Positions 158 through 2,243 of a stretch of DNA of 33,480 nucleotides are shown here, in pieces. This stretch comes from Deltaproteobacteria bacterium (GTDB lineage: Bacteria > Desulfobacterota > Desulfarculia > Adiutricales > Adiutricaceae). The DNA lies in assembly GCA_031264015.1 (NCBI GenBank), contig JAISET010000093.1, positions 1 through 33,480 of the forward strand, given 5' to 3'. Position 1 is the stretch's first letter. Each line of letters begins with the position of its first letter. A model generated the notes under the pieces. It did no database searches and had not been told where the DNA came from. It saw only the letters and a list, made by a program, of their open reading frames with translations. The translations under genes and the position numbers were made by a program.

Positions 158-981
158 GTGGCAAAACGGCTTTTTGCACTCAATGCGGCGCCTCCCTCCC
201 GCCGAGCGTCCAGAACTGTCCCGACTGCGGGGCGCCGCGGCCCTCATATGTCCCGGCCCCCCGGCCGCCGTCTCCCCGGCCGGTCCCGCTGGAGTCCCAG
301 CCGGCGCCACGTCCTCTGCCGCAACAGCCGGTCCCCCGGCCGGCGCCCTTGCAGCCGCGGCAACGGACGCCGGAAAAGCAGGCGGAACAGCAGCAGCCCC
401 GGCAACGGACCCAGGCGGCCCCAGGCCGGGGCGGCCCCCCGCCGCAGCAGGGGCGGGGCGTGACGCGCGCGCCCGGGAGGGCCCCGGGAGCCGTCCCGGA
501 AGGCTGCCAGACGTCCTCCCGGGAGCGGCCGCCCGCCGGCTGGGCCCCGGGCGGGCCGCAGCCGGGGCAGTCCCCCGGGAGCAAGACCGTCGCCATCCTG
601 CCGGCCTGGTTTTTCGGGTGGCCGGGCTTCCGCCGCTTCCGCGTCGGCAGGTTCGTCCCGGCGACACTGACGCGCCCGACCCCGGGCGGCCTCGGGACCT
701 GGCGGCCCGCAGACTTCATCCCCGTCCGCGCCGGCAGGCCCAAAGACTCCGACTCCCTCCCGGTCAGCAGGCCCCGCAGCCTGGCCGTGGCGCCGCCGGC
801 GATCGTCGGCGCAAGCGGGGGCTCCGCCGCGCCGTCGGCCGTCGCCGCCGCCAGGCCGGCTGCCAGCCGCGGCGGGAAGACTTGCCTCGCGGCGCCGACC
901 GCGGCCGGGGCGGAGGAAATATGCATGGGCAAACACGACCGCCAACCGGGGATTATGAGGAGCCGGCCGGGGCGGGCCTGA
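158..981 (+). pseudogene. Degenerate zinc-ribbon + TM2-domain membrane protein (frameshifted, decayed)
   Basis: Frame 1 is open from about 133 to the stop at 981. It reads a classic double-CxxC zinc ribbon at about 172-240 (FCTQCG, then about 10 residues, then CPDCG). A Pro/Gln/Arg-rich linker follows to about 570. Next comes a recognisable but damaged TM2 domain at about 580-745 (GWPGFRRFRVGR, then GGLGTWRPADF, where intact TM2 domains have G-x-G-x-H-R-F-Y-x-G and GGLGIWWLIDL). No ATG, GTG or TTG exists in this frame before the ribbon. A GTG at 158 in frame 2 gives MAKRLF and joins the ribbon only by a -1 shift in the T5 run 171-175. Many expected Leu, Ile, Tyr and His positions are Pro, Thr or Arg, so the segment could hardly span a membrane. 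The family is usually a small inner-membrane protein of unknown function. The reading frame is well supported; the pseudogene call is inference. A sequencing error could explain the frameshift but not the domain decay. Confidence 0.6.
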
Positions 982-1442: not shown

Positions 1443-2243
1443 CTAGGCCCGGGCCGGCAGTCTCGCGGGCGGGGCCCACTTTTTGAAGATGTCCGGGGAG
1501 CGGCCGTAGAGAGGGGCGGGCGGATGGCTGGCCAGGGTCCCGCAGGCGAGATAATAGGCGGCCAGGTCGGCCAGGGCCTCCGGGGACGCCGGGTCGACGG
1601 GCCCGGGGAGAAAACCGGGCCATAATCCGGGCGGCAGAAGGGGGAGCCCCGGCCCGACCAGGGTGACGGCCCCGCCGCGGGAAGCCTCGGCGAGGGTCCC
1701 GCCCAGACGCCCCGGCGCCGCGGCCAGCGTCCCCGTCAGAGCCTCGGGCTCCGGGTCGCCGGAGTTTTTTAAGTCCTGACGATTTTCCTGATTGTCCGGG
1801 TTTTGACGACCGGCGGTCTTGGCGGGGGGAAAGCGGTAGAGAACGGAGAAGACCTCGCCGTGTCTGGCGTCGACCACGGGGGCGACCAGGCGGGCCGCGC
1901 CGCCCGTCCGGGAGAACTCGGCCAGGGCCATGGCCAGAAGACTATGGACGCCGACGGCGGGAACGTCCAGGCCCAGGCCCAGACCCTTGGCCAGGGCGAG
2001 ACCCACGCGCAGGCCGGTGAAGCTGCCGGGCCCGCGGCCGCAGGCCAGCAGGTCGGGTTTGGCGCCCAGGGCCTCGGGGGAGTCGCAGAGCTCGGAGACG
2101 GCGGGGGGCAGGGCGGCCGAGTGCCCCGCCGGGCCTCTGAGGACGGTCTTTTTCAGAAGTCTGCCCCCGCGGCCCGAGCCGTCGGACTCGACCAGGCCGA
2201 CGGCCGCCTCGGGGGCGGAGGTGTCCCAGGCGAGAACGAGCAC
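1443..2243 (-). CDS. tsaB: tRNA threonylcarbamoyladenosine biosynthesis protein TsaB
   Basis: TsaB is the ASKHA-fold scaffold that, with TsaD and TsaE, transfers threonylcarbamoyl to A37 of ANN-decoding tRNAs in the cytoplasm. The 266-residue product begins with the family start (LAWDTSAPEAAVGL). It has the conserved GPGSFTGLRVGLALAKGL stretch at about residues 71-88 and the PVVDARHGEVF strand near 125. E. coli TsaB is about 230 residues. The extra length is partly a hydrophilic Asn/Gln/Asp-rich insert near residues 145-165 after RFPPAKTAG. The start is GTG (2243-2241), 3 nt after the rseP stop, so the two genes are translationally close and surely cotranscribed. The rseP-tsaB order is familiar from deltaproteobacteria. 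Confident call. Confidence 0.93.
   Translation of the reverse strand: MLVLAWDTSAPEAAVGLVESDGSGRGGRLLKKTVLRGPAGHSAALPPAVSELCDSPEALGAKPDLLACGRGPGSFTGLRVGLALAKGLGLGLDVPAVGVHSLLAMALAEFSRTGGAARLVAPVVDARHGEVFSVLYRFPPAKTAGRQNPDNQENRQDLKNSGDPEPEALTGTLAAAPGRLGGTLAEASRGGAVTLVGPGLPLLPPGLWPGFLPGPVDPASPEALADLAAYYLACGTLASHPPAPLYGRSPDIFKKWAPPARLPARA

Follow-up and report, generated by a model that had tools for sequence, protein, structure and literature searches.

Decay towards G/C of a putative zinc-ribbon/TM2 pseudogene, and signs of an A:T to G:C substitution bias in its genome

Results

A zinc-ribbon/TM2 gene remnant at the start of the window

The window, by which we mean the whole stretch of 33,480 nucleotides that was analysed, belongs as contig C9 to a genome (G000) of 3.95 Mb that is 87% complete. 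Judging by RseP, the named relatives closest to it are 'Deltaproteobacteria' bins and Candidatus Adiutrix, with at most 59% identity; the source bacterium and its nearest relatives are presumably termite-gut bacteria. A gene remnant consisting of a zinc ribbon, a Pro/Gln linker, a TM2 domain and an extra helix spans about 166–1150. The first-pass annotation had recognized a TM2-derived frame, which the Pfam match and the alignment with intact relatives support, but its limits of 580–850 were too narrow for the remnant. The features are as follows.

61–165, + strand: AT-rich block (GC 0.37) just upstream of the presumed dead gene, showing no shift toward GC when GC is read in 60-base steps
166–168, + strand: ACG where relatives have the start codon, in the context ATG-x-x-TGC (start contexts of 18 relatives)
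175–237, + strand: zinc ribbon CTQCGASLPPSVQNCPDCGAP with all four of its four Cys kept (Pfam Zn_Ribbon_1, 26 bits versus a cut-off of 25)
244–576, + strand: Pro/Gln/Arg-rich linker with GC 0.82; the linkers of relatives are Pro/Gln/Gly/Tyr-rich
577–768, + strand: eroded TM2 domain (Pfam TM2, 18.6 bits, cut-off 27.9; alignment and substitution counts)
769–870, + strand: eroded second hydrophobic segment (GC2 0.85), aligning with the post-TM2 helix of relatives
942–1061, + strand: putative pilin-like tail remnant in another frame, resembling the tails of L006 and L007 (P = 0.0075)
1159–1174, + strand: terminator-like hairpin, followed by a T run

The zinc-ribbon/TM2 frame is open from 133 to 981. 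At 166 it reads ACG-GCT-TTT-TGC, where most relatives begin ATG-x-x-TGC, and no ATG, GTG or TTG was found in this frame ahead of 349. The idea that the start had been lost through a missing T in the run at 171–175 was dropped, since ACG sits at the start position of the family. When the tail was compared with those of relatives, one of the three frames fitted (P = 0.0075), and the profile search gave the tail no score; a frameshift at about 930–955 is likely on this moderate support from the sequence.

The intact relatives, which occur across the genus and the family, have a zinc ribbon, a Pro/Gln/Gly-rich linker, TM2 and a further helix, and several carry a pilin-like tail. The window TM2, the weaker of the two TM2 places in this genome, could be aligned with them over its whole length (best matches 34–46% identity). 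The window copy resembles zinc-ribbon/TM2 proteins (PF05154 with PF13240) in its domain order and has largely kept the invariant TM2 Gly, Arg, Trp, Asp and Phe, but it differs from them in that the start codon is absent and the His, the Tyr and most Leu/Ile residues have become Arg, Pro and Thr. Its score of 18.6 bits lies below the curated PF05154 cut-off of 27.9 bits and does not place it among functional TM2 members. According to the alignment, an HRFY-type core with two membrane-spanning segments is likewise missing, as Pro or Arg stands at conserved Leu, His and Tyr positions. This Pro/Arg form was absent from all relatives compared, and no close DNA copy of the gene was found in its own genome or in the genus. 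The full-length alignment with intact relatives and the disabling lesion at the start position are both properties of a pseudogene; as judged from the sequence, this gene once encoded a zinc-ribbon/TM2 membrane protein and is now dead, that is, a putative pseudogene of the ordinary kind. Tandem pairs or triplets of zinc-ribbon/TM2 genes were seen in relatives (G002:C105:426–1725; G005:C205:4148–5017; G010:C106; G014:C118).

Direction of decay in the TM2 gene

We examined codon alignments of the window gene with 25 homologues, scoring a position as conserved when at least 85% of the homologues agreed. The results showed that 14 of 28 conserved A/T sites at second codon positions are now G/C and that none of the 16 conserved G/C sites has become A/T (Fisher p = 0.0005), which bears out the A/T to G/C erosion proposed from the window alone. 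At first codon positions the corresponding fractions were 3/9 and 1/12. The intact homologues had 0–4 changes in the conserved A/T second-position class. GC3 of the window gene is 0.94, GC falls at no codon position, GC1 included, and the equilibrium GC obtained from the gene is 0.93 (0.73–0.99). GC2 has shifted by about 0.25 in TM2 versus only 0.02 (S.D. 0.05) in intact genes at 25–50% identity. The second hydrophobic segment, for which the same Leu to Pro/Ser pattern had been described, aligned with the extra helix of relatives (GC2 0.85), and its erosion pattern was like that of TM2. Most changes are T to C or A to G, as had been claimed; 'almost every' was slightly too strong, given a few misfits (Gly to Val, Gly to Ser, Val/Ile to Phe).

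Another eroded zinc-ribbon/TM2 gene, L074 of G003 (G003:C111:51157–51264), shows ordinary randomization without a GC push: at second positions 7/21 sites went from A/T to G/C versus 1/14 in reverse, and GC3 is 0.49. The contrast matters because TM2 second positions are T-rich, so that any decay raises their GC2.

Substitutions in a hisB pair

A hisB DNA pair was used in place of a close TM2 orthologue for the substitution count. The broken copy lies at the start of contig C209 (L180) and was found by the frameshift and stop search, and the intact copy on C226 (L249) was found by a genome search. Over about 440 bases the two copies share 87% identity. From the intact to the broken copy, 44 of 144 A/T sites changed to G/C (A>G 21, T>C 21, T>G 2) and 8–9 of 298 G/C sites changed to A/T, besides small indels, which gives a per-site ratio of about 11:1 toward GC and a two-state equilibrium of 0.92 GC (0.85–0.96). 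The unbiased substitution spectrum that would have spoken against the proposal was not seen in this pair. The His-His of hisB, which we take to be the conserved metal site, is Arg-Arg in the broken copy. Both contigs continue into identical hisA sequence, which argues that they come from one organism.

Base composition in this genome jumps over a few hundred bases; a block of about 0.2 GC (L180, G000:C209, 640–1350) adjoins the GC-eroded hisB copy (0.73–0.77 GC).

Other decayed genes and repeat copies

Disrupted genes were sought by frameshift and stop, a search blind to composition, in approximately 1 Mb (about a quarter) of the genome, with genes called by a periodic Markov caller. A decayed aldehyde dehydrogenase gene on C1 (L107 10250–11781) was spotted first by its high GC2 and then independently by its frameshift. 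When second positions with agreement among three intact homologues were counted, 34 of 139 A/T sites had become G/C versus 5 of 94 in reverse, and the catalytic motif has changed from Gln-x-Cys to Arg-x-Arg. A short tandem repeat (RLPAPGS) at L107 11280–11345 breaks this gene just after the catalytic motif. The Fic gene on C39 (L149 6495–7301), in which Arg and Ser replace the His and Asn of the motif, was chosen solely by high GC2 and serves as an illustration.

Repeat copies gave the same picture. When L158 and L171 were polarized by a third copy, their private GC-ward versus AT-ward changes were 19:4 and 19:0, and L153 versus L117, an unpolarized pair, gave 24:0 among 25 mismatches. In the smaller samples from G002 and G003, of only six pairs each, no pair was equally one-sided. 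Decay from A/T to G/C thus recurs in this genome beyond the TM2 gene, and the proposed G/C-ward drift extends to the hisB pair, the aldehyde dehydrogenase, the repeat copies and the neighbour context of silent sites described below.

Agreement among disrupted stretches was partial: hisB and the aldehyde dehydrogenase match the TM2 gene, but L135, L137, L114 and L151 have an AT-rich or mixed composition. Singletons are balanced in a ten-copy repeat located at contig ends, the equilibrium of which is 0.55, and intergenic DNA has a mean GC of 0.56 with a spread of 0.1–0.9. In two repeat families the AT-richest copy sits in an AT-rich island, and the bias may therefore be regional. The low-GC exceptions could be due in part to AT-rich foreign DNA, to promoters and to dead DNA being lost before it reaches equilibrium; a process restricted to certain regions could also account for them.

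Contigs are broken by a GC-rich repeat that is about 330 bases long and present in at least 10 copies (L187, L175, L176, L171, L137, L168, L153, L124 and L165, mostly contig ends). Its variants are distributed as a mosaic, as if the copies exchange sequence. An Rfam search of the repeats gave no match.

Neighbour context and silent sites

The neighbours of changed bases were compared in four DNA pairs, the direction of change being taken from protein conservation for hisB and, in part, from the comparison of three copies for the repeats; for L153/L117 it was assumed. A>G changes, counted on either strand, were over-represented where the preceding base is a pyrimidine (odds ratio 3.2, p = 2.5e-9) and where the next base is G or C (odds ratio 2.8), and they showed no strand asymmetry. 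The context in these pairs is thus TpR>CpR (equivalently YpA>YpG).

Four-fold sites of the genes of this genome have a GC of 0.93, and T/(T+C) at these sites is 0.025 before G, 0.013 before A, 0.091 before C and 0.118 before T. Avoidance of TpA is common in bacteria, and the silent-site argument is therefore carried by the TpG part. For genes with homology support, the ratio of TpG to TpC is 0.38 (0.31–0.47) in this genome, compared with 1.64 in G003 and 1.38 in G002, so that the TpR signature at silent sites of intact genes is present here and absent from these two congeneric relatives.

Since the hisB-derived equilibrium of 0.92 equals the four-fold GC of 0.93 and the TpR context is shared, decay seems to follow one species-wide A:T>G:C substitution bias that would shape silent sites and dead DNA alike. 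Dead DNA and silent sites agree in direction and context, as such a bias predicts; it also predicts that all neutral DNA moves one way, and here the balanced ten-copy repeat and the intergenic GC of 0.56 do not conform.

Discussion

Proposed course of decay

We consider it probable that the dead TM2 gene, freed from selection, is drifting to the GC-rich neutral equilibrium of the species under a genome-wide A:T>G:C bias. On this account the start codon was lost and the hydrophobic segments would no longer be expected to span the membrane. With purifying selection gone, bases would drift to the neutral equilibrium, about 0.9 GC in the GC-rich backbone, mainly through A>G and T>C transitions that would turn Leu, Ile, His, Tyr and Lys codons into Pro, Thr and Arg codons. 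A single genome-wide bias may drive the changes in TM2, hisB, the aldehyde dehydrogenase and the repeats. Its source might tentatively be sought in mutation, or in T:G mismatch processing that favours C:G, perhaps during recombination.

The GC-biased repair or conversion suggested by the first-pass annotation is compatible with the data, but mutation bias, repair bias and biased conversion all predict the same GC-ward direction. A preference for TpR>CpR is what T:G-to-C:G mismatch processing might be expected to leave. We regard it as possible, yet rather doubtful, that a truly A:T>G:C-biased mutation or mismatch-processing spectrum (T:G to C:G, mainly TpR) sets both the silent-site GC and the direction of decay. 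Vsr turns T:G into C:G, and the genome encodes it; as a species-specific cause it was rejected, as most relatives have Vsr too. UDG-superfamily glycosylases were rejected because every genome of the genus has one match, and loss of mismatch repair (a mutator) was ruled out by MutS and MutL, both present above the profile cut-off. Plant-type C-to-U RNA editing behind the Pro and Thr codons was rejected because it would leave His>Arg, Tyr>Arg and Lys>Arg changes unrestored, and a diversity-generating retroelement because A>G and T>C occur equally often on one strand.

Alternative explanations

Hypermutation from A:T to G:C that acts locally and in episodes on duplicated or dispensable DNA, resembling repeat-induced point mutation but aimed at adenine, would hit a few tracts hard and spare the rest. 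It would account for the extreme one-way pairs (24:0, 38:1, 46:4) alongside balanced pairs and an unbiased repeat family, for the marked neighbour preference and transition excess, and for the untouched AT-rich DNA next door. However, the broken hisB has 8–9 reverse changes, transversions and indels, as in slow decay, the intact hisB copy was spared, and single-copy genes genome-wide show the same context at silent sites; we therefore think this explanation improbable. The identical hisA stretch, at which a hypermutated tract would end, may itself be functional, and some of it is assembly overlap. In fungi, repeat-induced point mutation likewise produces transitions in one direction in duplicated DNA and prefers certain neighbours, but here the direction is the opposite, the organism is a bacterium, only one hisB copy has changed, and single-copy genes share the signature at silent sites.

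A protein might still be made from the TM2 gene, remodelled into a soluble Arg/Pro-rich form that keeps its zinc ribbon, the changes being adaptive or tolerated. The four ribbon Cys, the frame open from 133 to 981 and the high GC3 would fit, but no start codon that could be used precedes 349, open frames arise easily at such GC (several other frames here are open too), a 21-residue ribbon may survive by chance, and the Pro/Arg form was found in no relative; the suggestion is thus quite improbable. Still slightly less credible is ordinary unbiased decay, in which any random change at T-rich TM2 second positions raises GC, as in L074 of G003, since decay this deep should clearly have cut the GC3 of 0.94 in the window, where GC1 is not lower either, and since the hisB count normalized per site is about 11:1.

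Relation to known systems

What remains of interest under a genome-wide A:T>G:C bias is that bias and its species-specific neighbour signature, rather than the pseudogene itself. Mutation was AT-biased in all lineages tested by Hershberg and Petrov (2010, PMC2936535), and the same study notes that selection on base content acts on pseudogenes as on the rest of the genome. This genome resembles those systems (PMC2936535; Hildebrand 2010, PMC2936529) in its high silent-site GC and in that dead DNA shares the fixation bias, but here dead DNA rises in GC, about 11:1 in hisB, which is the reverse of the reported mutational direction. Biased gene conversion is a leading candidate for fixation bias (Lassalle 2015, PMC4450053). 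As in bacterial GC-biased gene conversion (PMC4450053), A:T to G:C changes are in excess outside selected sites and the equilibrium equals silent-site GC; the present case, known from substitution counts, differs in the species-specific TpR>CpR signature and in strong variation between neighbouring segments.

The old question is what holds some bacterial genomes GC-rich, given AT-biased mutation in every lineage of PMC2936535. Genes that decay GC-ward, together with a signature missing in two congeneric relatives, allow one to ask which repair or recombination trait differs. If mutation here were truly A:T>G:C-biased, it would contradict the view of AT-biased mutation as universal among bacteria. 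In practice, GC-eroded pseudogenes keep long open frames and may be annotated as real Pro/Arg/Ala-rich proteins, as our simple gene caller did.

Conserved proteins of this genome were also seen to carry in-frame inserts. The match to mutS (G000:C249:1087–4290) falls into two parts, separated by about 800 bases within a single open frame that is 1227 codons long, and in tsaB (window 1443–2243) the matches of relatives are interrupted near residues 140–162.
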